64,000 nt of DNA from Sporolactobacillus vineae DSM 21990 = SL153 (GTDB taxonomy: Bacteria; Bacillota; Bacilli; Bacillales; Sporolactobacillaceae), in NCBI RefSeq assembly GCF_000377985.1, contig NZ_KB899045.1:246013-310012 (forward strand), read 5' to 3'. The notes under the pieces are model-generated. The model was not told where the DNA came from and did not search any database. It saw nothing but the letters and a program-made list of their open reading frames with translations. A program made the translations under genes and the position numbers. Of the stretch, positions 5,157 to 57,666 are shown piece after piece (the stretch's first letter is position 1; every line of letters starts with the position of its first letter).

Positions 5157-5501
5157 ATGATCATATATGATATTTTTGAACTAACAAAGAAAATTAAACG
5201 CATTGCTGAACTGCAAATCAAGGATCATAGTAAAGAATCTATCGAAAAATTGAGTTCATCCCTTAAGGAACGTCAGTTGCTGATCAACCAGCTTACTGGA
5301 AACTATACAGAAGAAGAAAAAGTGCTTGGGAAAAAGATTGTTAAATTGAACGAAGAAATTGATATATTATTAAAAACGACCAGAGGATTAATGGTTGGTG
5401 ATATGCAACGATTCCGTCGGCAAAAAAAGTCTCTGAATTCATATAGAGGTGGTTATCAAACGCCAGGTATCACCAGTGCTTTTATGGATAAACGCGAATA
5501 A
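5157..5501 (+). CDS. fliT: FliT-like flagellar chaperone
   Basis: This 114-residue helical protein starts one base after the fliS stop. Position, length (B. subtilis FliT is about 113 residues) and the highly charged, coiled-coil-prone composition (KIKRIAELQIKD near residues 11-22; KIVKLNEEIDILLKTTRG near 62-79) fit FliT, the export chaperone for the cap protein FliD. Sequence identity in this family is low, so the assignment leans on context. It is the last gene of the operon, followed by a terminator. Confidence 0.75.
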   Translation: MIIYDIFELTKKIKRIAELQIKDHSKESIEKLSSSLKERQLLINQLTGNYTEEEKVLGKKIVKLNEEIDILLKTTRGLMVGDMQRFRRQKKSLNSYRGGYQTPGITSAFMDKRE

Positions 5502-5535
5502 AAATCGTCTCAGATCAATCAAGGCGATTTTTTTT
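5502..5535 (+). terminator. Rho-independent terminator of the flagellar operon
   Basis: The stem AAATCGTCT / AGGCGATTT encloses a 10-base loop and is followed by a run of eight T, directly after the fliT stop. Confidence 0.85.
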
Positions 5536-5564
5536 CAGCTCATTTTTCAAATATAATAATAAAA

Positions 5565-5598
5565 GCGGTTCGCCCGACAAGATTGCCGGACGAACCGC
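5565..5598 (-). terminator. Terminator of the minus-strand small gene (possibly bidirectional)
   Basis: GCGGTTCG and CGAACCGC form a strong stem with an inner CCG/CGG. On the minus strand it is followed by CTTTTATTATT, 24 bp beyond the stop of the 46-residue gene. Confidence 0.7.
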
Positions 5599-5621
5599 CT
5601 GCTTTTTGGATGTTGTGTGTG

Positions 5622-5762
5622 TCAGTCTGCGGCAACGGCTTCTTTTTCGGAATTTTCGTCGTTGAGGCTGGCCAGGAACTGCAGATAGTTGTATGTGGAT
5701 TCTTTTTCGTCTTCATTGAGCTTTTCGAACAATTCGACGATTTCTTCTTTTTTAACGGACAT
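5622..5762 (-). CDS. Small acidic protein of 46 residues, function unknown
   Basis: On the minus strand an ATG at 5762 preceded by GGGAG opens a 46-codon gene, ending at TGA 5622-5624 just before a terminator. The product begins MSVKKEEIVELFEKLNEDEK and ends SEKEAVAAD. It is very acidic, rich in Glu and Lys, and probably one or two amphipathic helices (LFEKL, YNYLQFLASL). It has no cysteine, signal peptide or membrane segment. The helix pattern loosely recalls small DUF2281-type proteins, but I do not recognise it. It has its own SigA promoter and about 160 nt of structured leader, a complete stand-alone transcription unit between fliT and hpf. That argues it is a real gene. Confidence 0.75.
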   Translation of the reverse strand: MSVKKEEIVELFEKLNEDEKESTYNYLQFLASLNDENSEKEAVAAD

Positions 5763-5923
5763 TTGGAAGTCTCCCTTTATGAGATGTTGTCACCGTCTCA
5801 GAGCAAGTTTGAGAATTTCATCACAAAGTTGGAACTAAAGACCAACTTTTCATAATAACACTCACTTATGTGAAATGCCTGTGAAAGTGATCACTTTCTG
5901 AGGGGGAGGTAACCCCTCATTGC
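5763..5923 (-). promoter_or_regulatory. Structured 5' leader of the 46-residue gene
   Basis: Between the minus-strand promoter and the start codon lie several inverted repeats: TGAGGGG/CCCCTCA (5899-5919, 7-nt loop), a perfect 16-bp palindrome GAAAGTGATCACTTTC (5883-5898), AAGTTGG/CCAACTT (5826-5848) and a weaker TCTCA/TGAGA pair nearer the gene. No T-tract follows any of them, so this is not an obvious attenuator. The 16-bp palindrome could equally be an operator in the early transcribed region. I do not recognise a known riboswitch. Confidence 0.5.
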
Positions 5924-45235: not shown

Positions 45236-46105
45236 TTGGCAACTCCTAATGTATTCAACACATTTCATTTTCTGGTGCTACATTTCCCGATTGCACTGAT
45301 CGTCGTCAGCTTTCTGTGTGATCTCGTAGCATCATTCGTGAAAAAGTCAAAATGGAACGGGACACTGAAGAAGGCAGGCTATATCACGCTTGTCGCAACG
45401 GCAATCACCGGTATTGTGACTTGCCTGGCCGGCCTGATTGCAGCTGAATCACTCGGCCTGATGGCAACCATCGGGGCACATGCCACGAAGGCAATTATTT
45501 TCACAGCCTATGTGACCGTTCTGGCTGTTGTCCGCATCGTTCTTTCGAAAACGACGAAAAAAGATTTCGGGGACAACCTGCTCTACCTGGTGTTCTCACT
45601 CGTCGGTGCGATTCTGGCTTTCACGTTGTTCAAAATCTATCGCTATCCGCACTGGGGGGTTCTTCAGTTCACCGTTCCGCTGGTGATTGTCGGCTTCCTT
45701 GCTGATCTGTCCGCAATTATCTGGAAAGCGAAGAGCTGGGCCAAGAGTCTGCAGGACATCGGCTACACGTTCCTGATTCTCGGTACAGTTGCCATTATCG
45801 CAACAGTTATCACCGGCTACATGAGAGCCGCTGAAATGCCTGCGTTGGCACATGCCGCGGTTAAGCCGGTTAAGTATGATCCGGCTGCGCTTCATCTGCA
45901 TGCGGTATGGGGCGTGATCACCATGATCGCCTTCATCATACTGAGCGTTGTCCGTTCGTACTTCCACTTCGAATTTGAAGCGAAAGACTTGCTGAAGGGC
46001 AAAGCAGTCTACATCGTCGGTGCGGTTGTCTGCATCGTCATCATTTCCGTCGCTTCTCACCTTGGCGGTACGATCGCTCTGTTCCCTGAACTGTTCGGGA
46101 AATAA
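45236..46105 (+). CDS. Tandem-duplicated DUF2231 membrane protein
   Basis: The 289-residue product starts at TTG 45236 (GGGGGAAA upstream) and has about eight membrane helices in two halves that resemble each other. The first opens HFLVLHFPIALIVVSFLCDL (11-30). The second has LQFTVPLVIVGFLADLSAII (about 143-162), with the same spacing to later helices and a His in each half (GAHATKA; LHLHAVWG). DUF2231 is usually a single unit of about 140 residues, so this looks like a fused duplication. The function is unknown. The paired histidines would allow heme binding, which is speculation. It stands next to the hydrogenase operon but is separated from it by a strong terminator. Confidence 0.75.
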   Translation: MATPNVFNTFHFLVLHFPIALIVVSFLCDLVASFVKKSKWNGTLKKAGYITLVATAITGIVTCLAGLIAAESLGLMATIGAHATKAIIFTAYVTVLAVVRIVLSKTTKKDFGDNLLYLVFSLVGAILAFTLFKIYRYPHWGVLQFTVPLVIVGFLADLSAIIWKAKSWAKSLQDIGYTFLILGTVAIIATVITGYMRAAEMPALAHAAVKPVKYDPAALHLHAVWGVITMIAFIILSVVRSYFHFEFEAKDLLKGKAVYIVGAVVCIVIISVASHLGGTIALFPELFGK

Positions 46106-46396: not shown

Positions 46397-47488
46397 GTGA
46401 AAAAGGAAGAACCAACAATTTATCAGACTGTTCTTCAACGAGGGTATTCTCGGCGCACGTTTCTTAAAATGTGCGCAGCGCTTGCCGCAACCCTGGGTCT
46501 GGACTATTCACAGACAAATACGGTTGCCCATGCACTGGAAACGAAAAAGCGAATCCCGGTTATTTGGCTGCAGATGCAGGATTGTACCGGCTGCTCGGAA
46601 TCTTTCATCCGGTCTTCCTATCCAAAGACCGAGAGCGTTATTTTTAATATGATTTCACTGGAATATATGGAACTGCTGACTGCTGCAGCAGGTTTCCAGA
46701 CGGAGGCGGCAGAGCAGAACGTCCTCAAAAAGTATGCCGGTGAATATGTCCTCGTTGTCGAGGGAAGCGTTCCGGTCAATCCCTGTTATCTGACGATCGG
46801 CGGCCGTTCCGGTGCCGACCTGTTAAAAGAGGCAGCCGCACACGCGAAAGCGGTCCTCGCCTTCGGTACCTGTTCCTCATGGGGCGGTATTGCCAAGGCC
46901 AAACCGAATCCGACGGGTGCCCGGCCGATTGCCGCCGTCCTGAAAGGAACCCCGATCATTCGTGTCCCCGGCTGCCCGCCGATTGCCGAGGTGATGACCG
47001 GTGTTCTGGCGCATATCGTCACATTCGGTTCGCTTCCGGAAACGGATATGCTCGGGCGTCCTAAGGCTTTTTACCGGCATCGGATTCATGACAAGTGCAA
47101 CCGCCGTGCTTATTTTGATGCCGGTCTGTTCGCCGAGTCCTTCGATGATCCGAATCTGAAGGCCGGCTATTGCCTCTACAAACTGGGCTGCAAGGGACCG
47201 ACGACTTATAATGCCTGTGCGGAACTGCGCTGGAACGGCGGCATCAGCTACCCGATTCAGTCCGGCAATCCGTGCATCGGCTGTTCAGAAGCAGATTTCT
47301 GGGATAACGGACCGTTCTATACGCACGAGGCGAAACTGCCGCTGACCCAGACGACGATCAATCCGGAGAAGTGGGGTGCCGGGATTACCGCCGCCGCCGC
47401 TGTCGGTGTCGGCGCCCATGCGGGCATTACTGCAGCGGTAAAGCATCATCAGGCGAAAGACCAGAATAAGGGTGATCATCATGAGTAA
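46397..47488 (+). CDS. hyaA: [NiFe] uptake hydrogenase small subunit (group 1)
   Basis: The small subunit carries the iron-sulfur clusters that conduct electrons from the active site to the membrane. The 363-residue product has a Tat signal with SRRTFLK at 18-24 and a hydrophobic stretch after it, so the folded heterodimer is exported. Cluster ligands are visible: CTGCSE (proximal), GTCSSWGG, PGCPP, then HDKCNRR, GYCLYKLGCKGP and GNPCIGCSE (medial and distal). I see no extra cysteines next to the proximal cluster beyond CTGCS. A short C-terminal hydrophobic helix (GITAAAAVGVGAHAG region) and a His-rich tail (KHHQ...DHHE) would anchor it in the membrane. Its end overlaps hyaB by 8 bp. Confidence 0.96.
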   Translation: MKKEEPTIYQTVLQRGYSRRTFLKMCAALAATLGLDYSQTNTVAHALETKKRIPVIWLQMQDCTGCSESFIRSSYPKTESVIFNMISLEYMELLTAAAGFQTEAAEQNVLKKYAGEYVLVVEGSVPVNPCYLTIGGRSGADLLKEAAAHAKAVLAFGTCSSWGGIAKAKPNPTGARPIAAVLKGTPIIRVPGCPPIAEVMTGVLAHIVTFGSLPETDMLGRPKAFYRHRIHDKCNRRAYFDAGLFAESFDDPNLKAGYCLYKLGCKGPTTYNACAELRWNGGISYPIQSGNPCIGCSEADFWDNGPFYTHEAKLPLTQTTINPEKWGAGITAAAAVGVGAHAGITAAVKHHQAKDQNKGDHHE

Positions 47489-49208
47489 ACGTATCGTTGT
47501 CGATCCGATTACGAGAATTGAAGGGCATCTGCGGATTGAAGCGGACGTCCAGAATGGTAAAATTCAGGATGCCTTCAGCTCCGGAACGGCGATCCGCGGG
47601 ATTGAACTGGTGGTTAAAAACAGGGATCCGCGCGACGTCTGGGCCTACGCGCAGCGTATCTGCGGCGTCTGTACCACAGTCCACGCGCTGGCAAGCATCC
47701 GTTCGGTCGAAGATGCTCTGGGCATTCGGATTCCGCAGAATGCCAACCTGATCCGCAATATCATGAATGCGACGATCATCCTGCATGACCATGTCGTTCA
47801 CTTTTATCATCTGCATGCCTTCGACTGGGTCGATGCACTGAGCGTGCTGAAAGCCGATCCGGCTGCCACCAGCAAACTGGCGCAGTCGATTTCGCCGTGG
47901 CCGAATTCATCGCCGGGCTATTTCAAGAGTGTCCAGGCTAAGATCAAGAAAGTGGCGGACAGCGGCCAGCTGGGTGTCTTTGCCAACGGGTACTGGGGGC
48001 ATCCGGGCTACAAACTGCCGCCGGAAGTCAATCTTCTGGCAGTTGCCCACTACCTTGAGGCGCTGGACTGGCAAAAAGAGATTGTGAAGATCCATACCAT
48101 TTTCGGCGGAAAGAACCCGCACCCGCATTACCTGGTCGGCGGGATGGCAACGCCGCTGGACATCAATATGGACAACGGCATTCATTCGGAGAAACTGGCA
48201 CTCATCGATCAGCTGATCTCACAGGCTCACGATTTTGTCAATCAGGTTTATCTTCCCGACCTGCTGGCCATCGGCTCGTTCTACAAGGACTGGGCGAAAC
48301 AGGAGATCGGCGGCGGGCTGAACAACTATCTGTGCTATGGCGACTTTTCGACGAAAGACATCCATGACACGCAGTTATACCGGGTCCCGCGAGGAATCAT
48401 TTTGAACGGCAACATGAACGACGTGCTGGATATCGACCCGCGCGACCCGAATCAGGTCAGTGAGCTGATCGATCACGCCTGGTACACCTATGACGGCAAG
48501 GCGAGCGGCGGACGCCATCCATGGAAAGGCGAAACCAGCATGAATTATACCGGTCCGACGCCGCCGTTCCAAAACCTGAACACGAATGAAAAATACAGCT
48601 GGGTGAAGTCGCCCCGCTGGAAGGGCAATGCGATGGAAACCGGTCCGCTAGCAAGGATCATGGTCGGTTATGCAAAAAATACCGGGGATTACCGTGCACT
48701 TGTTGACGATACGCTGAAAAAGCTTGGTCTCCCGATCACGGCACTCCACTCGGCAGTCGGTAGAACCGTTGCTCGCGGGCTGGATGCCCAGCTGGCGGCC
48801 GACTGGCTGCGCGACGATTTCAACAGCCTGATGGCAAATCTAAAAAGCGGCGATCAGGTCACTTTCGACAACAGCAAGTGGGAACCGAAGACCTGGCCGA
48901 AACACGCACTGGGCGTGGGTACGGTGGAAGCGCCCCGCGGCTCGCTCGGTCACTGGATTGAGATCAAGGACGGTAAAACCGCCAACTATCAGGCGGTCGT
49001 CCCGACAACCTGGAACGCCTCACCGCGTGACGATGCCGGCAGGATCGGCGCCTATGAGTCTTCACTGAAAAATGTACCGGTTGCCGATCCAAACCAGCCG
49101 CTCGAAATCCTGCGGGTGGTGCATTCCTTCGACCCATGTCTTGCCTGCGCTGTTCATCTGACAGATCTTGAGAACAAGAACAAGACGTCGGTTCGTGTCG
49201 ATGGCTGA
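47481..49208 (+). CDS. hyaB: [NiFe] uptake hydrogenase large subunit
   Basis: The large subunit holds the NiFe(CN)2CO site that splits H2. The 575-residue product starts at ATG 47481 overlapping hyaA. N-terminal motifs are TRIEGH (11-16) and RICGVC (Cys61, Cys64). The C-terminal motif DPCLACAVH supplies Cys553 and Cys556 and ends at His559. The 16 residues after His559 are the tail removed by a maturation protease once nickel is inserted. That protease is encoded as a fusion in the next gene. The subunit has no signal of its own and is co-exported with HyaA. Confidence 0.97.
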   Translation: MSKRIVVDPITRIEGHLRIEADVQNGKIQDAFSSGTAIRGIELVVKNRDPRDVWAYAQRICGVCTTVHALASIRSVEDALGIRIPQNANLIRNIMNATIILHDHVVHFYHLHAFDWVDALSVLKADPAATSKLAQSISPWPNSSPGYFKSVQAKIKKVADSGQLGVFANGYWGHPGYKLPPEVNLLAVAHYLEALDWQKEIVKIHTIFGGKNPHPHYLVGGMATPLDINMDNGIHSEKLALIDQLISQAHDFVNQVYLPDLLAIGSFYKDWAKQEIGGGLNNYLCYGDFSTKDIHDTQLYRVPRGIILNGNMNDVLDIDPRDPNQVSELIDHAWYTYDGKASGGRHPWKGETSMNYTGPTPPFQNLNTNEKYSWVKSPRWKGNAMETGPLARIMVGYAKNTGDYRALVDDTLKKLGLPITALHSAVGRTVARGLDAQLAADWLRDDFNSLMANLKSGDQVTFDNSKWEPKTWPKHALGVGTVEAPRGSLGHWIEIKDGKTANYQAVVPTTWNASPRDDAGRIGAYESSLKNVPVADPNQPLEILRVVHSFDPCLACAVHLTDLENKNKTSVRVDG

Positions 49209-49226
49209 TCAGAGGGGGGACAAGTG

Positions 49227-50516
49227 ATGAGAACACTGGCGGAACTTAAACCGGTCATCCGGGAAAAGCGGGCAGAAGGACGGCTGGAAAACAGAAAAAC
49301 AGCCGCAGCCGACCGCAATGCCGTTCATGCCCGCGAGCAGAACTCTGTCTACGTCTGGCAGCTGCCGATCCGGATCTTTCACTGGGTCAATGCGGCGTCG
49401 ATTATGATCCTGATGGTTACAGGGATTTACATCGGCCATCCGTTCATCACACCGGCCAATAACGGAGAAGCTTATTATGATTTTTTCATGGGCTGGGTGC
49501 GGGACATACACTTCTTCACCGCGTTTATCTTTACAGCGAATCTGATCTTTCGCTTTTACTGGACGTTCAAGGGCAATCATTATGCTAAATCGCAGATTCT
49601 CCAGAAAAGTTTCTGGAGCGGACTGATTGAGACGGTGAAGGGTTATCTGTTTCTCCCAAATCACAAGCCGCATTATATCGGGCACAATCCGCTCGCTCAG
49701 CTGAGCTACTGGATCTTTATCGGGCTGGGCTCGGTGATTATGGTATTTACCGGCTATTACCTGCTTTTTCAGCCGCAGCCGGATTCCATTTTTGGCAAAG
49801 CGTTCGCCTGGGTGACGTTCGTCTTCGGCGGTTCGGACTATACCGTGCGTTCCTGGCATCATCTGGTTGCCTGGGCTTTTATGCTGTTCATCGTGATTCA
49901 CGTCTATATGGCGTTTCGTGAAGACTGGCTGGCAAAGAACGGGACGATGTCGTCGATTTTTACCGGATATAAGTTCGAGCCGGCACATCGTGCGGAGGAA
50001 AAAGCGGCGGTGACGGTGCTGCACAAGCAGACGGCGGCCGTGGACGAAGCGCGGAAGATCACGATTCTCGGTATCGGCAATTCTTTATACAGTGATGAAG
50101 GACTGGGCGTTCAGATCCTTCCCCGGCTGCAGGAAGCGCTCAAGGATATCGGCAATCTTGAATTTGTCGACGGAACGACGGAAGGCATGCAGCTGCTCGG
50201 CCCGGTTGAGGCGACACGGTCACTGATCATCATCGATGCCGTTAATGCCGGAAAGGATCCCGGAACACAGATCAGGCTGGAAAAGGAGGAGATTCCCTCC
50301 TTTAACGGAATCAAAATGTCCGTGCACCAGATCGGCTTTCAGGAAGTGGTATCCGCAGCCCAGCTGCGCGACCGTCTTCCCGAACGGATGGTGATGTTCG
50401 GGATTCAGCCGGCATCGCTCGATCTCGGCACGGAACTGAGCGAAACGGTTCAGTCGGCTGTTCCGGAACTGATCGGCCGGATTCGCCGACAGCTCCGTGA
50501 ATGGCGGGAAGTTTAA
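49227..50516 (+). CDS. Hydrogenase cytochrome b fused to large-subunit maturation protease
   Basis: A single uninterrupted frame of 429 residues joins two proteins that are normally separate. Residues 1-40 are a charged extension. About 41-255 is the HyaC-type di-heme cytochrome b with four membrane helices and candidate heme His at 52 (RIFHWVN), 95 (RDIHFF), in RSWHHLV and in VIHVYMAF; it passes electrons to menaquinone. After a linker, residues 278-429 are a HyaD/HycI-type endopeptidase: GIGNSLYSDEG (Glu291), IIDAV (Asp337) and SVHQIGF (His367) are the three nickel-sensing residues of the family. By topology the C-terminus should be cytoplasmic, which suits a maturation protease. ATG 49227 follows GGGGGGA; GTG 49224 is possible. 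The stop overlaps the next ATG (TAATG). Confidence 0.93.
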   Translation: MRTLAELKPVIREKRAEGRLENRKTAAADRNAVHAREQNSVYVWQLPIRIFHWVNAASIMILMVTGIYIGHPFITPANNGEAYYDFFMGWVRDIHFFTAFIFTANLIFRFYWTFKGNHYAKSQILQKSFWSGLIETVKGYLFLPNHKPHYIGHNPLAQLSYWIFIGLGSVIMVFTGYYLLFQPQPDSIFGKAFAWVTFVFGGSDYTVRSWHHLVAWAFMLFIVIHVYMAFREDWLAKNGTMSSIFTGYKFEPAHRAEEKAAVTVLHKQTAAVDEARKITILGIGNSLYSDEGLGVQILPRLQEALKDIGNLEFVDGTTEGMQLLGPVEATRSLIIIDAVNAGKDPGTQIRLEKEEIPSFNGIKMSVHQIGFQEVVSAAQLRDRLPERMVMFGIQPASLDLGTELSETVQSAVPELIGRIRRQLREWREV

Positions 50517-50944
50517 TGGACCGCCGTTCCTTTTTAAAAGAACTGGTTCAGAGCCTGACGGATACCGGGAAAGAGATTGTCTCCCCATTTATCGAACAGG
50601 ATATGGCTAAAATCGGCAGAGCGGCCGATGTGCTGAACGGGGTCAGCTGGCACCGTCTTGATCCCGTCGGCTCCGGATATTCCGAACAGGTCTGTGACGG
50701 GCGACTGATCTGCCTCTATGGCCATGACGGGAAGCTGACGGTGTGCGGAAAATCCTGTCCCGATTGCCACGAACTTCTGTCCTGGATTGCTTACGCCCGG
50801 CAGCTCCATTGCCCGGCGTGCGGAAAGAACTACACGTTTACCGGGGAGGAACAGCCGCTGAAACTCGAAGGCTATCAGGTGAAACACGAGAAAGGGAGCT
50901 GGTGGGTCGCTCTGCCGGAAGGAGGCGACAGGCCGCATGCATGA
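50516..50944 (+). CDS. Four-cysteine Rieske-like accessory protein of the hydrogenase operon
   Basis: The 142-residue product begins MDRRSFLKEL, like a Tat motif, but the next 25 residues are charged (KEIVSPFIEQD), so there is no signal-peptide core. The C-terminal half (about 60-133) has the general look of a Rieske fold. The metal motifs, however, are C81-PD-C84-H and C99-PA-C102-G, spaced 14 residues, instead of CxH and CxxH. Four cysteines could bind a rubredoxin-type iron, zinc or an unusual cluster. Extra Cys60, 66 and 77 are also present. It is translationally coupled: ATG overlaps the preceding stop, and its end overlaps hypA by 8 bp. A role like the rubredoxin HoxR/HupI of other uptake hydrogenase operons is inference. 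Confidence 0.75.
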   Translation: MDRRSFLKELVQSLTDTGKEIVSPFIEQDMAKIGRAADVLNGVSWHRLDPVGSGYSEQVCDGRLICLYGHDGKLTVCGKSCPDCHELLSWIAYARQLHCPACGKNYTFTGEEQPLKLEGYQVKHEKGSWWVALPEGGDRPHA

Positions 50945-51290
50945 GATGGGTCTGATGGAAGACGCCTTGCAGATGGTTTCCAAGGATGCTGCCGGCCATG
51001 GGATGAAAAGTGTTGAGAAAGTGTCGCTGATTGTCGGTGATCTGAGCAATGTTCTGCCTGATGCGCTGCGATTTGCCTTTGATGCCTTCAGGAAGACCGG
51101 AGAGATTCCGGGGATCGGCGGGCAGGCACGCCTGGAGATCATCCGCGAACCGGGAAAAGCAAGGTGTGCCGTCTGCGGCAAAGAATACGAACCGAATGAG
51201 TATCTGGCCCTCTGCCCTGATTGCGGCATGCCGTTCGGGGTGGTTATTTCCGGAGAAACATTTAGAATTGAGTCATATGAAGGGAGCTGA
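50937..51290 (+). CDS. hypA: HypA, nickel insertion protein
   Basis: HypA delivers Ni to the hydrogenase large subunit together with HypB. The 117-residue product starts MHEMGL, with the nickel-binding His2 and Glu3. A zinc site CAVC ... CPDC lies near 77-96. The start is fixed by the His2 requirement and by GGAGG upstream. It overlaps the previous gene by 8 bp. Confidence 0.95.
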   Translation: MHEMGLMEDALQMVSKDAAGHGMKSVEKVSLIVGDLSNVLPDALRFAFDAFRKTGEIPGIGGQARLEIIREPGKARCAVCGKEYEPNEYLALCPDCGMPFGVVISGETFRIESYEGS

Positions 51291-51294
51291 GATC

Positions 51295-51954
51295 ATGAAA
51301 GTGACACTGGAAAAGGATGTCATGGAGAATAACGACCGTGCCGCTGAATTCAATCGAAAGCTTTTTCAGAAGACCGGAACACTGGTAATCAATATCATGA
51401 GTTCACCGGGTGCCGGCAAAACGACGATTCTTGAGAAAACGGTCAGAGCTCTGTCCGGTCAGTACCGGATTTCTGTGATTGAAGGCGATATTGCCACCGA
51501 ACGCGACGCCGACCGGATCCGTTCAGCGGGTACGCGTGCCGTGCAGATTGCGACAGAGGGAGAATGCCACCTGGATCCGCGGATGATCGCCAAGGTACTT
51601 CCGGAGATCGATCTCGATGAAACGGATATTCTTTTTATTGAGAATGTCGGCAATCTCGTCTGTCCGTCTGAATTCGATCTCGGTCAGACACATAAGGTGG
51701 TTGTGCTCAGCACGCCGGAGGGTAACGATAAGATTCCCAAATATCCATTAATGTTTCATGTCACGGAACTGGCACTGATCAATAAAACCGACCTGATCCC
51801 TTATGTCCCGTTCGATCTCGATCAGGCGCGCAAAGATCTTCAGGCGATTAATCCGGAATCCCGGCTGATGCCGGTTTCCGCCCGGAGCGGCCAGGGCTTC
51901 GATGACTGGCTGAACTGGATTAAAGAGGCGCGGCAGGCGTGCCTGAAGCCGTAA
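51295..51954 (+). CDS. hypB: HypB, GTPase of nickel insertion
   Basis: HypB hydrolyses GTP to drive nickel transfer with HypA. ATG 51295 (AGGGAG upstream) gives 219 residues. The G1 loop is SPGAGKTT (about 37-44), the metal motif GECHLDPRM, and NKTDL is the guanine-specificity motif. The N-terminal high-affinity CxxCGC nickel site and His-rich stretch of some HypB are absent, so this is the short form. The stop lies 16 bp inside hypF. Confidence 0.95.
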   Translation: MKVTLEKDVMENNDRAAEFNRKLFQKTGTLVINIMSSPGAGKTTILEKTVRALSGQYRISVIEGDIATERDADRIRSAGTRAVQIATEGECHLDPRMIAKVLPEIDLDETDILFIENVGNLVCPSEFDLGQTHKVVVLSTPEGNDKIPKYPLMFHVTELALINKTDLIPYVPFDLDQARKDLQAINPESRLMPVSARSGQGFDDWLNWIKEARQACLKP

Positions 51955-54224
51955 AAATCATCGTCCGCGGCCGGGTTCAGGGGGTCGGTTTCCGTCCGTT
52001 CGTTTACCGGATTGCTGCTGAAGAAAAGCTGTCTGGCACGGTTCAGAACAATATGGACGGCGTGCGGATCATCTGGGAGGGAAGCCGTGACCGGATCGAC
52101 CGGGCAAGGCTCCGGCTGATGAACGAACGGCCGCGCCTGTCCCGTATCGACCGGGTGATTGCGGAGGCTATTCCGCCGGAAGGCTACACGACTTTCCGGA
52201 TTATCGAAAGTGACCGGTCGGGAAAATCGGAACTGGTGATTCCTGTCGATTCAGCAGTGTGTGACGATTGTCTGCGGGAAATGCGTGATCCGAAAAATTT
52301 CCGCTACCGGTATCCGTTCATCAACTGCACCCAGTGCGGTCCGCGCTATACGATCATTGAAGGATTGCCCTATGACCGGGCTTATACGTCGATGATAGCT
52401 TTTGAGATGTGTGCGGACTGCCGGCAGGAATATGAGGATCCGCTGAACCGGCGCCACCATGCGCAGCCGATTGCCTGCAGCACCTGCGGACCGGAACTCT
52501 CACTTATTGCTCCGGACGGGACCGCACTGGGGAACGGGGAAAAAGCACTTGGCCGGGCTGTTGATACGCTGGAGCAGGGCGGGATTGTCGCCATCAAAGG
52601 GATCGGCGGGTTCCATCTGGCCTGCAATGCAGCGGATCAGGAAGCCGTAGCCCGTCTGAGGCAGCGAAAGGGGCGGCCGGATAAACCGCTCGCGATCATG
52701 GCCGCTTCGGTGGAACAGGCAAAGCGGATTGCCGAAGTGTCTCCAGAAGAGGAACGCGTGCTCCGTTCACCGGAAGCACCGATTGTCCTGCTGCGCCAGC
52801 GGCAGGTGTTTCCTCAGAGTATAGCACGGGCGGTGGCACCGGGCGTCGGGACAGTCGGGATTATGCTCCCCTATGCGCCGCTGCATCATTTACTGTTCGA
52901 CGACGGCACGTATCAGTTTCTGGTGATGACCAGTGCGAATCCGTCCGGCCTGCCGATTCTCTATCAGAACGAACGGGCCGTCCAGTATTTATCGGGGATC
53001 TCGGACTGCATTCTGAGCCATAACCGGCCGATTCTGCATGCAATTGATGATTCCGTCGTCCGTGTCGGTCAGGATTTGCCTTTTTTTCTCAGGCGGTCAC
53101 GCGGTTATGTACCGGATCCGATGGCAACCCAAATGAGCGTAGACGGCATTGCGGCGCTGGGCAGCCAGATGAAGAACACGTTCGCGCTCGGCCGCGGCCG
53201 CCAGATTTTTATCAGCCCGCATCTTGGCGATCTGTCGTCGGTGGAAGGCATGGATCACTATGAAGAAACATTTGCCCACCTGACACGGTGGATGGGAATC
53301 ACGCCGAAATTGCTGGCCGTCGACAGGCACCCGCTTTTCAGCACGCGGGAGTTTGCGGAAAAGATGGGCGTACCGACGCTCGCCGTGCAGCATCATCACG
53401 CCCATCTTGTCTCCTGCATGGAAGACAACAGACTTAGTGGCGAGTGCCTCGGCCTGATTCTGGACGGAACGGGATACGGTGATGACGGAGCGACCTGGGG
53501 GTTCGAGCTGCTGCACGGCGGCGCAGCGTCTTGCCGGCGTCTGGCCCATCTCCGCTATTCACCGCTGCCCGGCGGGGATAAAGCGGTGACCGAGCCATGG
53601 CGCAATGCGGCAGCGATGCTGATCTGTCTGCTTGGTGAAGAAGGCGGCCGGCTGAGTAAAATGTTGTTTCCGGATCAGTCGGCGGCAATCACCATTATCG
53701 GCCGGATGATCCGCCGGAAGGTAAACAGTCCGCTGGCCGGAACCTGCGGACGGCTGTTCGACGCGGTCAGTGCGATGCTCGGATTGTGCCGCGTGTCAAC
53801 CTATGATGGAGAAGCGGCGGTGCTGCTTTCTGAAACAGCCGGGGATCCGCCGGAACCTGCCGAACCGTATCCCTATCGAATCAGCGGCAGCACTGTTCAA
53901 GAGCTCGATTTTACTCAGACTTTGCGGAAGATCGCCAATGATCATTTAAACGGCGTGCCGGTGGCGGTCATCAGCCGGCGTTTCCATGAAACGGTCGTTT
54001 CGGCTGCCTGCCGCGTGACCCGGCGGATTTCCTCGGAACATCCGGAATATGGAAAACGGATTGTGCTGTCCGGAGGGAGTTTCAATAATCCTTATCTGTC
54101 GCGGCGGATTGCCGGGGAGTTAAGGGCATCCGGATTCACCGTTTTCACCCACCACCGGGTTCCGTGCGGTGACGGAGGACTGTGTCTCGGACAGCTGGCG
54201 GCAGCGGCAGCCAGGCAAGACTGA
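51939..54224 (+). CDS. hypF: HypF, carbamoyltransferase for cyanide ligand synthesis
   Basis: HypF makes a carbamoyl adenylate from carbamoyl phosphate and transfers the group to the C-terminal Cys of HypE. The 761 residues contain an acylphosphatase domain (about 5-90, VRGRVQGVGFRPFVYR), two zinc fingers (CDDCLREM ... CTQCGPRY; CADCRQEY ... CSTCGPEL), a YrdC/Sua5 domain (about 205-385, GGIVAIKGIGGFHLAC) and a Kae1-like domain (about 405-755, VQHHHAHLVSCMEDN, LDGTGYGDDG). GTG 51939 is the likely start, overlapping hypB. Confidence 0.96.
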   Translation: MPEAVKIIVRGRVQGVGFRPFVYRIAAEEKLSGTVQNNMDGVRIIWEGSRDRIDRARLRLMNERPRLSRIDRVIAEAIPPEGYTTFRIIESDRSGKSELVIPVDSAVCDDCLREMRDPKNFRYRYPFINCTQCGPRYTIIEGLPYDRAYTSMIAFEMCADCRQEYEDPLNRRHHAQPIACSTCGPELSLIAPDGTALGNGEKALGRAVDTLEQGGIVAIKGIGGFHLACNAADQEAVARLRQRKGRPDKPLAIMAASVEQAKRIAEVSPEEERVLRSPEAPIVLLRQRQVFPQSIARAVAPGVGTVGIMLPYAPLHHLLFDDGTYQFLVMTSANPSGLPILYQNERAVQYLSGISDCILSHNRPILHAIDDSVVRVGQDLPFFLRRSRGYVPDPMATQMSVDGIAALGSQMKNTFALGRGRQIFISPHLGDLSSVEGMDHYEETFAHLTRWMGITPKLLAVDRHPLFSTREFAEKMGVPTLAVQHHHAHLVSCMEDNRLSGECLGLILDGTGYGDDGATWGFELLHGGAASCRRLAHLRYSPLPGGDKAVTEPWRNAAAMLICLLGEEGGRLSKMLFPDQSAAITIIGRMIRRKVNSPLAGTCGRLFDAVSAMLGLCRVSTYDGEAAVLLSETAGDPPEPAEPYPYRISGSTVQELDFTQTLRKIANDHLNGVPVAVISRRFHETVVSAACRVTRRISSEHPEYGKRIVLSGGSFNNPYLSRRIAGELRASGFTVFTHHRVPCGDGGLCLGQLAAAAARQD

Positions 54225-54291: not shown

Positions 54292-54516
54292 ATGTGCGTC
54301 GGTGTACCGGCTAAAGTCATTGAAAAAAAAGAATATACCGCACTGGTTGATGTGATGGGGACACGGATGGAAGTCGGTATCTTGTTTGTGCCCGAAGTTG
54401 AAGTCGGTGAGTACGTCATTGTCCATGCCGGACAGGGCATGTCGGTCATCGACCGGGACTCTGCGCATCAGAGTATCGGGGAATGGGAGAAACTGGCCCG
54501 TGAAGACGCTATTTGA
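54292..54516 (+). CDS. hypC: HypC, Fe(CN)2CO cofactor chaperone
   Basis: HypC carries the Fe(CN)2CO group with HypD and docks to the large subunit. The start is set at ATG 54292 so that the invariant Cys2 (MCVGVPAKV) is N-terminal; an ATG at 54283 lies too close to the GGGAGG site. The 74-residue product is of normal length. The end overlaps hypD by 17 bp. Confidence 0.95.
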   Translation: MCVGVPAKVIEKKEYTALVDVMGTRMEVGILFVPEVEVGEYVIVHAGQGMSVIDRDSAHQSIGEWEKLAREDAI

Positions 54517-55609
54517 ACCGAAAGATCCGGCTGTGGCGAAAGAACTGGCCCGGAAAGTGATCGGGCTGGCAGACCGCTGCCGTGAGAAAACGGGTACGGT
54601 TCCGGCATTTATGGAAGTCTGCGGCTCACATACGATGGCTCTGGCGAAAACAGGAGTGAAACTGATTTTGCAGGGCCACGTCAATCTGATCTCAGGACCG
54701 GGCTGCCCGGTCTGCGTTACGGATCAGAAACAGATTGATGCGATGATCGAAGTGGCTGAATCAGATGACCGGATTGTCTGCACGTTCGGGGATATGATGC
54801 GTGTGCCGGGATCGAAGCGCACACTGATGAGTGCCAAAACAGAGGGCCGGGATGTCCGGATTGTCTACTCACCGATCGATGCCGTGAAGATCGCCGAAGA
54901 AAACCCGGACCGGGAAGTTGTCTTCCTCGGTGTCGGCTTTGAGACAACAGTTCCGGTGCTTGCGGCAGCGATTCAACTGGCCGCGCAGAAACAGCTTAAA
55001 AATTTTTCGATGTGGGCGACAACGAAACTGGTGCGCCCCGTACTCCGGACACTGTTGACGGTGAAAAAAGTAAAGATCAACGGCTTCCTGCTCCCGGGCC
55101 ATGTCTCGATTGTGCTCGGCGGCAATGCCTATCAGTTCCTTGTCGATGATTTCAGGATGCCCGGCGTTATCAGCGGTTTTGAACCGGTGGAGATGCTGAG
55201 CGCCATCTACAAACTGCTGAAGATGGTGTACGAGGACAAACCGGAAATTATGAACAACTATAAAAGTGTGGTCCGTTCCAAGGGCAATCCGGTGGCGCAG
55301 AAGCTGATGAATGAATTTTTCCAGCCATGCGACGAAGCCTGGCGCGGAATCGGTGTGATTCCGCAGAGCGGCCTGAGGATCCGGGACAAATATGCCGCAT
55401 TTGATGCCCGGAAGAAGTTCAGCATTGAAGTCGGCGAACCGAAGAAGACACTGTGCCGCTGCGGCGACATGATCTGCGGCCTGGCTTCTCCGGAACAGTG
55501 CCTGCTGTTTGGTAAAGCGTGCACACCGCTCCATCCGGTCGGGCCGTGCATGGTTTCAACAGAAGGCAGCTGTGCTGCACACTATGCTTATATGAGGAAG
55601 GAAGGATAA
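54500..55609 (+). CDS. hypD: HypD, iron-sulfur scaffold for Fe(CN)2CO assembly
   Basis: HypD is the scaffold on which the cyanide and CO ligands are added to iron. GTG 54500, overlapping hypC, gives 369 residues. Conserved stretches are MEVCGSHTMALAKTG, SGPGCPVCVT, GFETTVPVL and PGHVSIVLG. The C-terminal cysteine set for the [4Fe-4S] cluster is CRCGDMICG, CLLFGKAC and GPCMVSTEGSC. The upstream frame from 54386 only antisense-shadows hypC in another frame. Confidence 0.96.
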   Translation: MKTLFEPKDPAVAKELARKVIGLADRCREKTGTVPAFMEVCGSHTMALAKTGVKLILQGHVNLISGPGCPVCVTDQKQIDAMIEVAESDDRIVCTFGDMMRVPGSKRTLMSAKTEGRDVRIVYSPIDAVKIAEENPDREVVFLGVGFETTVPVLAAAIQLAAQKQLKNFSMWATTKLVRPVLRTLLTVKKVKINGFLLPGHVSIVLGGNAYQFLVDDFRMPGVISGFEPVEMLSAIYKLLKMVYEDKPEIMNNYKSVVRSKGNPVAQKLMNEFFQPCDEAWRGIGVIPQSGLRIRDKYAAFDARKKFSIEVGEPKKTLCRCGDMICGLASPEQCLLFGKACTPLHPVGPCMVSTEGSCAAHYAYMRKEG

Positions 55610-55614
55610 CCAAT

Positions 55615-56619
55615 ATGGACCGGAAGATTACCCTTGCTTATGGGGATGGCGGGGAACTGGCGCATAAACTGATTCAGCAGATTTTTGTCTCCGCGTTCGG
55701 CAATCGTGATGCATCACGGTTCGATGCTTCATTCCTTTCACTGAAAAGCGGTGAAATTGCCGTAACAACCGACAGCTTTGTGGTCAAGCCGCTCTTTTTT
55801 CCCGGCGGCGACATCGGGAAAATTGCTGTCTCCGGAACGGTCAATGATCTGGCGGTTGCCGGAGCCGTGCCGCTCTGTCTGACCGCAGGGTTCATTATTG
55901 AAGAAGGTTTTCCGCTTGCCGATCTGCGGAAAATCGTGCGCTCGCTGGCTGATGAGGCAGCCGGTGCCGGTGTCGAAGTAGTTGCCGGCGATACGAAGGT
56001 TGTCGAAAAAGGCGGTGCCGACGGCGTTTATATCAATACGACCGGTGTCGGCCTGAAACGAAGTGAAGGGGCCATCGATCCATCCCGAATCGCGCCCGGC
56101 GACGATATTCTGATTAGCGGACCGATCGGGGACCATGGTATTGCCATCCTTGCCGCCCGCGGAGAACTTGGCCTGATGACCGAACTTCAGAGCGATTGCG
56201 CGCCACTGAATAAAATGATCGATGCCGTGATTGAAGCCGGCTGCGATGTCAAAATGATGCGCGATCCGACGCGTGGCGGTATCGCAACAACACTGGTTGA
56301 GATTGCCGAAGACTTTCATGCAACATTTGAACTGAGCGAGTCCAGACTGCCGGTTCGTGATGCTGTCCGGGGCGCCTGCGATATTCTCGGCTTTGACCCG
56401 ATGTATCTGGCCAATGAAGGCAAAGTGGTTATGGTTGTCGCTCATGAAGATACACAAAAAGCGCTCAACGCCATGCGCACGTTCAGCGAAGGCGAAAGTG
56501 CAGCGGTGATCGGACAGGTTACCGGAAAGGGTATCGGCCAGCTGCTCCTGGAAACGCCGCTTGGCAGTAAGCGGCGGCTGCATCGTTTATCCGGAATGAT
56601 GCTGCCGCGCATTTGCTGA
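55615..56619 (+). CDS. hypE: HypE, thiocarbamate dehydratase
   Basis: HypE accepts the carbamoyl group from HypF on its C-terminal Cys and dehydrates it with ATP to a thiocyanate, the source of CN. ATG 55615 gives 334 residues. The AIR-synthase-like ATP-binding fold shows YGDGGELAHKLI, DSFVVKPLFFPGGDIGK and RDPTRGGIATTL. The C-terminus is PRIC, with the essential terminal Cys. Confidence 0.97.
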   Translation: MDRKITLAYGDGGELAHKLIQQIFVSAFGNRDASRFDASFLSLKSGEIAVTTDSFVVKPLFFPGGDIGKIAVSGTVNDLAVAGAVPLCLTAGFIIEEGFPLADLRKIVRSLADEAAGAGVEVVAGDTKVVEKGGADGVYINTTGVGLKRSEGAIDPSRIAPGDDILISGPIGDHGIAILAARGELGLMTELQSDCAPLNKMIDAVIEAGCDVKMMRDPTRGGIATTLVEIAEDFHATFELSESRLPVRDAVRGACDILGFDPMYLANEGKVVMVVAHEDTQKALNAMRTFSEGESAAVIGQVTGKGIGQLLLETPLGSKRRLHRLSGMMLPRIC

Positions 56620-56658
56620 GCGTCGACTGTAGTGAAAAAATAAATGAGGTGGATGAAA

Positions 56659-56886
56659 ATGGGACTTGGAAATATCGGTTTTCCCGGCTTAATCATGATT
56701 CTGGTCATCGCTCTGATCATTTTCGGGCCTTCAAAACTGCCGGAAATCGGCAAAGCGTTCGGTAAAACCCTCAGAGAATTCAAAAAAGGGACGCAGGAAC
56801 TCACTTCCGACGAACACGATGAAAAACCTGAGAAAAAGGCAACGGTAGCTGAAAGTCATTCAGAACAGGCAGAGAAGAAGAACTGA
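56659..56886 (+). CDS. tatA: TatA/E-type twin-arginine translocase subunit
   Basis: TatA multimers form the passage for folded proteins. ATG 56659 (GAGGTGG upstream) gives 75 residues: one N-terminal membrane helix (about 8-22), [20 protein letters not shown] as the hinge and amphipathic helix (about 23-42), and a charged Lys/Glu-rich tail. It is located in the hydrogenase operon with tatC, so it probably exports HyaA-HyaB. Confidence 0.95.
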
Positions 56887-56901
56887 AAGAGGGTAAGGTG
56901 T

Positions 56902-57666
56902 ATGAAAAAGGGAAACCGGGATATGACTCTGATCGAACATCTGAGTGAACTGCGCAAGCATTTCATCGTGATTCTGGTTGCGTTTATTGTCAGTTTCGGG
57001 GTTTCCCTGTTCTATATACGCCGGCTGTACTACTGGCTGATTCACGATCTGGGGGTGAACGGCAAGCTGACGGTGCTTGGTCCGACGGATATCATTCGCG
57101 TCTACTTCATGCTCGGCGGCGTCGTTGCGCTGGCGATCACGATCCCGGTGGCCGCGTGGCAGCTCTGGCTGTTTGTCGCCCCGGCACTCACCGAGAAGGA
57201 GCGAAAGATTGCCGCTTCCTATATCCCGGCCATCTTTCTTCTGTTTCTCTGCGGGCTTGTCTTCGGCTATTTTGTTGTTTTTCCAAATATCCTCCGTTTC
57301 CTGATGTCGATTAACGGCGGCATGTTCACCGTCATGTTTACGACTGAAAAGTTTTTTGAATTTCTGATCAATATTGTGCTGCCGTTCGGCATTCTGTTTG
57401 AACTGCCGGTTGTGGTGGTCTTTCTGACGAACCTGGGTCTGCTGAGGCCGCAGCTGATGAAGAAAATGAGAAAAGTGGCTTATTTATCGCTTGTCGTTCT
57501 GGCGACGATGATCTCACCGCCTGATTTTGTATCTCACTCGCTGGTGGCCGTCCCGCTGCTGCTGCTATATGAAATCTGTGTCACCGTATCCGGTGTGGCT
57601 TACCGGAGAAGAATGAAACGTCTGTCCGTGGCGAAAAGAGAACTCTCTGCTTCGGAGGGGACCTAA
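56902..57666 (+). CDS. tatC: TatC, twin-arginine translocase receptor
   Basis: TatC recognises the RR motif of Tat substrates. The 254-residue product has six predicted membrane helices and the conserved cytoplasmic start MTLIEHLSELRKHF. Further family features are FVAPALTEKERK and MISPPDFVSH. It is 15 bp after tatA and is the last gene of the operon; no clear terminator follows it within the 100 bp before secG. Confidence 0.97.
   Translation: MKKGNRDMTLIEHLSELRKHFIVILVAFIVSFGVSLFYIRRLYYWLIHDLGVNGKLTVLGPTDIIRVYFMLGGVVALAITIPVAAWQLWLFVAPALTEKERKIAASYIPAIFLLFLCGLVFGYFVVFPNILRFLMSINGGMFTVMFTTEKFFEFLINIVLPFGILFELPVVVVFLTNLGLLRPQLMKKMRKVAYLSLVVLATMISPPDFVSHSLVAVPLLLLYEICVTVSGVAYRRRMKRLSVAKRELSASEGT

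Follow-up and report, generated by a model that had tools for sequence, protein, structure and literature searches.

Introduction

The locus described here raises the question whether the cytochrome b subunit of a [NiFe]-hydrogenase and the protease which matures the large subunit of the same enzyme can be one protein, and if so what the joining means. The window, i.e., the whole stretch of 64,000 nucleotides from Sporolactobacillus vineae that was analyzed, carries a hydrogenase gene cluster in which both functions appear to be encoded by one gene (Table 1). A preliminary description of this DNA had proposed that the fusion is real and that it tethers the protease to the membrane. We have compared the gene with its counterparts inside and outside the genus.

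Table 1. Features of the hydrogenase cluster, with positions in the window.
Feature	Position	Strand	Basis or remark
Hydrogenase small subunit with twin-arginine motif SRRTFLK	46397..47488	+	TIGR00391; motif read in the sequence
Hydrogenase large subunit, uncut C-terminal tail, presumed substrate	47472..49208	+	PF00374
Fused gene: cytochrome b subunit + hydrogenase maturation protease, 429 aa	49227..50516	+	single open frame
Cytochrome b (HyaC/CybH-like) domain, residues 42-250	49350..49976	+	TIGR02125, E 8.8e-57
Linker, residues 252-276	49980..50054	+	low model confidence for most part; differs among species
Possible internal start in the linker: GGAGG 49994-49998, in-frame GTG 50010-50012	49994..50012	+	
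Maturation protease domain (HybD-like), residues 277-429	50055..50513	+	profiles; alignment to HybD
Small protein with several Cys (CxxC), begins MDRRSFLKEL	50516..50944	+	directly after the fusion
HypA	50937..51290	+	PF01155
HypB, start approximate	51283..51954	+	TIGR00073, range 51220-51954
HypF	51939..54224	+	TIGR00143
HypC	54292..54516	+	TIGR00074, 70.5 bits against a cut-off of 48
HypD, start approximate	54500..55609	+	TIGR00075, range 54473-55609
HypE, start approximate	55612..56619	+	TIGR02124
tatA 56644-56886, tatC 56902-57666	56644..57666	+	PRK14861/TIGR01411 and TIGR00945

The two halves of the protein

The fused frame starts with ATG and runs without an earlier stop to a TAA at 50514-50516; a further in-frame GTG is found at 49224. 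The Pfam profile Ni_hydr_CYTB matches residues 43-247 (E 4.8e-31, exceeding its curated cut-off) and the NCBIfam profile TIGR02125 scores 192 bits against a cut-off of 121.5. In the alignment with E. coli HyaC (4gd3_A) H52, H95, H211, and H225 each fall on a histidine, and we take them to be the counterparts of the HyaC haem sites. Judged by profile score and histidines this half is a Ni/Fe-hydrogenase b-type cytochrome subunit.

The other half matches HycI/PF01750 on residues 296-420 (E 7.4e-29, 100.7 bits against a cut-off of 23) and TIGR00072 on residues 280-423 (E 2.5e-40, 137.8 bits against 47.45). The HyaD/HybD subfamily model TIGR00140 gives 136 bits on residues 278-426, which is below its cut-off of 151.8, and from its sequence the protease half is therefore best called HyaD/HybD-like and classed at the superfamily level (TIGR00072/PF01750) only. 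Residues E291, D337, and H367 align with Glu16, Asp62, and His93 of HybD, which have been proposed as its metal-binding residues (PMC2670836). In one fusion of another genome (L008 in G001) Asp replaces E291 at the first metal site. Profile searches with Pfam and NCBIfam revealed no additional domain in the fused protein.

In an alignment inspected by eye the linker, counted from GYKFEP to the K-[IV]-T of the protease, is 13-28 residues long and in frame in all fusions. The preliminary description had put it at about residues 256-277 and had stated that the diagnostic residues of both halves are kept; the boundaries found here (252-276) are nearly the same, and the four histidines and three metal residues are in place.

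Structure and topology

The fusion was modeled with AlphaFold2 from 23 rows, which gave a mean pLDDT of 68.6 and a pTM of 0.46. Helices are predicted at residues 46-70, 81-116, 155-181, and 204-238, followed by a stretch (239-274) mostly of low confidence and then by a protease fold in which residues 359-369, which contain H367, have a pLDDT <50. The model is modest in quality and says nothing firm about the relative placement of the halves. When it was used in Foldseek it found HybD for the second half (1cfz, TMt 0.77) and HyaC for the first (6g94 and 4gd3, TMt 0.73 and 0.70, respectively).

Four membrane helices are expected; a hydropathy scan puts only three of them above the threshold, and the fourth is taken from the model and the homology to HyaC. 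The N-terminus contains 11 Lys and Arg residues, the middle loop four, and the outer loops one each, a pattern which fits a cytoplasmic location of the N-terminus and the middle loop. The C-terminal stretch is charge-balanced and not net positive (7 K+R, 7 D+E). With four membrane helices, as expected for a HyaC-type cytochrome, the protease would be on the cytoplasmic side, on which the precursor is processed, and the earlier suggestion that the C-terminus of the cytochrome is topologically suitable thus holds, the cytoplasmic side being the likely one.

The fusion within Sporolactobacillus

The same single frame without inner stops is present in 8 of 15 Sporolactobacillus genomes including the window's own; the carriers include Sporolactobacillus shoreae, putidus, spathodeae, laevolacticus, and strain THM19-2. 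A hydrogenase large subunit was detected in the same eight, so that the fusion is found in 8/8 genomes with a hydrogenase, and the other seven matched neither the large subunit nor the protease nor the fusion. In each of the eight the fused copy is the sole match to PF01750 (the HycI family). When the search was widened to the family, matches at E 1e-10 came from 8 of 26 genomes, which are the eight just mentioned; another member of the family (G018) has a weak protease match only (E 8.8e-6, 24% identity).

The trivial explanation would be that a sequencing or assembly error conceals a stop between two genes, and the relatives examined outside Sporolactobacillus do carry two genes. One protein occurs twice among the eight in the alignment, which leaves seven distinct fusion sequences, and all of these are in frame with linkers of different lengths. 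The presence of a single frame in eight genomes excludes a missed stop in one assembly, and we regard such an error as next to impossible. The concern of the preliminary description about a concealed stop at the junction is thus removed by the seven other genomes, and its main claim of a genuine cytochrome-protease fusion is confirmed throughout the hydrogenase-bearing members of the genus. It had further stated that the fusion would be refuted by relatives with two genes in this location. Such genes do exist outside the genus, but inside it each hydrogenase genome has the fused gene, and the fusion is not refuted by them.

Ratios of dN/dS were calculated from pairs among the eight coding sequences with the identical-protein pair left out. 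The cytochrome has a ratio of 0.035 and the protease one of 0.085; the linker has 0.305 and the first 38 residues of the protein have 0.251. The ratios are rough because the synonymous sites are near saturation (pS 0.70-0.73). Read from the sequences, both halves are under strong purifying selection and the linker retains its frame and little of its sequence. A degenerate protease half was considered and rejected, because the metal residues are kept and its dN/dS is low.

One frame could still yield two working proteins, by an internal start or by proteolysis in the linker, in which case the fusion would be a matter of gene layout only. The linker in the window has an in-frame GTG preceded by GGAGG (Table 1), four of the seven distinct linkers (L001, L003, L004, and L008) have an in-frame ATG, GTG, or TTG, and most of the linker is of low confidence in the model. 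Against this, the linker of L002 has none of these codons, and in L005/L006 and L007 the sole one is at the position of the first strand of the protease. A conserved internal start was rejected since the start codons in the linker differ among the eight fusion sequences. In-frame starts in four of seven linkers mean that a free protease may also be made in the window's species and some others; as a general account of the fusion we find two products from one frame unlikely.

Separate genes outside the genus

The searches at the levels of order, class, and phylum were samples of 397, 398, and 398 genomes, with matches under set E-values. Bacillota were sampled in this way; beyond Bacillota plasmid records alone were searched, and the plasmid matches listed comprise 60 rows of 78 records, six rows having no annotated feature under the match and several (H73-H77, H79, and H80) matching one half only. 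This gave 58 distinct cytochrome-protease pairs with both halves on one strand, of which 7 are fused, all from Sporolactobacillus, and 51 are separate; a Rhizobium plasmid contributed one of the separate pairs and Bacillota the other 50. The count does not include G306, in which the halves are about 5 kb apart, nor loci with one half, e.g., L049, L058-L060, L062, L063, L066-L068, and L081. The preliminary description had suggested a search for similar fusions in other Firmicutes; none turned up among the sampled Bacillota outside Sporolactobacillus, in which the 50 distinct pairs are separate.

Candidates for such fusions were flagged by open-frame length, a measure which reads through stops, or by a single match. 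G409, G456, G811, G094, G493, G528, G454, G467, G792, G732, and G441 were all rejected, each having two genes with an intervening stop. Plasmid row H69, with a single feature under the match, was rejected as well; the protease is a separate gene there and no cytochrome gene is annotated. It should be noted that in three genomes of one other family (L069, L070, and L071) cytochrome and protease share one frame and are separated by a single TAG with a GTG right behind it, i.e., they are one base change short of a fusion.

For 30 separate pairs with a cytochrome identity of at least 53% the border between the genes was analyzed. The protease is in the +1 frame in 25 of the 30. Its open frame extends back into the cytochrome gene also in 25, of which 22 are +1, and in the remaining five starts 10 to 68 bases past the cytochrome stop. 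A tree was built from 56 distinct pairs, L036 and L104 of the 58 being left out as short. In it the fused rows are all on one side of a single branch with support 100/99; a long-branch warning applies elsewhere in the tree. We infer that the fusion most likely arose once, when the frame shifted and the stop was lost where the two neighboring genes meet.

Gene neighborhood

The order small subunit, large subunit, cytochrome, protease, CxxC protein, hypA, hypB, hypF, hypD, and hypE is shared by five Sporolactobacillus loci (L022-L026) and by 10/10 outside loci with both flanks (L027-L035 and L037); L036 starts within the cytochrome gene and is hence outside this count. The gene for the CxxC protein, for which profile searches gave no family match above cut-off, follows the protease in 16 of 18 loci (L022-L037; not L076 and L077). 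The two more distant loci deviate: the CxxC protein has no match in L077, and in L076 neither it nor the hyp genes have a match in the available stretch.

The genes tatA and tatC follow hypE in the seven other fusion genomes too, and the cluster ends there. Apart from the TatC of the cluster no other TatC was found in any of the eight fusion genomes. A TatC above cut-off is also present in five of the seven Sporolactobacillus genomes without hydrogenase, and the tat genes adjoin the hydrogenase as well in a relative with separate genes (L027), so that the location of tatA and tatC is no argument for a coupling based on the fusion.

Two further observations concern the surroundings of the cluster. 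Upstream of the hydrogenase genes the window has a gene for a DUF2231 membrane protein (45236-46105); of the five named Sporolactobacillus loci (L022-L026) three, L022-L024, have it in the corresponding position. In S. putidus the gene for the large subunit and the fused gene are about 750 bases apart, and the interval contains a repeat of about 42 bases in 11.7 copies (L116, G010:C6:151500-152600, at 293-770; also L023, about 5300-5800); the gap in the window is 18 bases.

These comparisons bear on the possibility that the fusion is neutral, i.e., that the joined protein is no better or worse than two and that the tethering has no function of its own. The fused sequences form one clade, the linker is variable in length and weakly constrained, the gene order is as in the relatives, no new domain has been gained, and the overlap of the open frames in most of the closer separate pairs is also in favor of neutrality. 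No return to two genes is seen in the eight genomes despite the near-saturated synonymous sites, which speaks against it; this is weak evidence because a new stop and a new start would both be needed. We give the neutral explanation an even chance. It concerns the persistence of the fusion and can be combined with the explanation that the protein is bifunctional, which is presented below.

Substrate and maturation

The presumed substrate is encoded just upstream. The seven distinct Sporolactobacillus large subunits all have DPCLACAVH followed by LTD and 12 or 13 residues, i.e., a tail of 15 or 16 residues. DPCLACAVH is also found in three relatives (L009-L011), and more distant large subunits read DPCMSCATH. 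In E. coli the tail is cut between the His and the next residue, a Val, once nickel has been inserted (PMC6769069); in Sporolactobacillus the residue after the His is a Leu.

The explanation we favor, and consider probable, is that the fusion is a membrane protein with two functions in an uptake-type [NiFe]-hydrogenase and that its cytoplasmic tail cuts the precursor of the large subunit prior to Tat export. The N-terminal half would be the cytochrome b which transfers electrons to quinone from the exported pair of small and large subunits. Subunit I of cytochrome bd, a quinol oxidase, has matches in 15/15 Sporolactobacillus genomes (split in two pieces in one of them), which gives a possible route from H2 via quinone to oxygen. 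The C-terminal half would be the maturation protease, held on a flexible cytoplasmic linker, which would remove the tail of the large subunit after nickel insertion; the cut is expected after the His of DPCLACAVH and before the pair is exported through Tat by means of the signal of the small subunit. The order of export steps is established knowledge for enzymes of the HyaABC type and may apply here. The cytochrome frame would have continued into the protease when the border of the neighboring and often overlapping genes changed, in a single event. That the fused protease is active, works at the membrane, and remains joined to the cytochrome is what we infer from the fusion itself, its conservation and single clade, the selection on both halves, the kept residues and substrate tail, and the sole HycI-family match per genome, all of which are observed.

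A more far-reaching model is that maturation is tethered: the nickel check and the cut would take place at the cytochrome beside the Tat pore, and one scaffold would couple the cutting of the hydrogenase to its export and docking. In Salmonella lasting complexes of the proteases with the large subunit, dependent on the cofactor, have been described (PMC5299533), and in Ralstonia a large subunit without tail still gave active membrane enzyme in a lower amount (PMC7294309). From these two reports a membrane-held protease could help to order the three steps, and need not. We hold the tethered model to be tentative and rather doubtful. The 1:1 ratio of protease and electron acceptor and the link of tail cleavage to Tat export which the preliminary description had raised are likewise conjectural, so that its interpretation is supported in part. 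If the tethered model is true the protease is a built-in part of the membrane complex. Thanks to the natural fusion a spatial coupling of [NiFe]-hydrogenase tail cleavage to membrane assembly can be tested in one strain.

Comparison with known systems

A search by title and start of abstract found no publication on a cytochrome-protease fusion, which is weak evidence as most subscription journals are outside such a search, and in the same way none on a Sporolactobacillus hydrogenase. The words fusion and fused are absent from the passages of PMC2670836 that treat HybD. The Sporolactobacillus fusion consists of two known parts newly joined, and among the hydrogenase carriers it is genus-wide. 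The only HycI-family protease found in these genomes thus sits within the electron-accepting subunit of the hydrogenase, which tells that a maturation protease can persist as a domain of a membrane subunit. It also calls for caution with annotations, since the fused gene may bear the name of one half only.

E. coli HyaC, the cytochrome b of hydrogenase-1 (PDB 4gd3 and 6g94), belongs to the same family and can be aligned to residues 40-251 of the fusion with the histidines kept; unlike the fusion it is a stand-alone chain of 235 residues without an attached protease. E. coli HybD (PDB 1cfz and 2kml), a chain of 162 residues, has the same fold and the same proposed metal-binding residues as the C-terminal half, and HybD and HyaD as maturation proteases act on the same type of substrate as the fusion protease would. 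Both are soluble single-domain proteins, whereas the Sporolactobacillus protease is attached to a membrane protein. The closest comparison is with the cytochrome-protease pairs of other Bacillota such as Schinkia, Paenibacillus, and Tepidibacillus, which have the same neighbors in the same order as the Sporolactobacillus locus and differ from it in having two genes instead of one.
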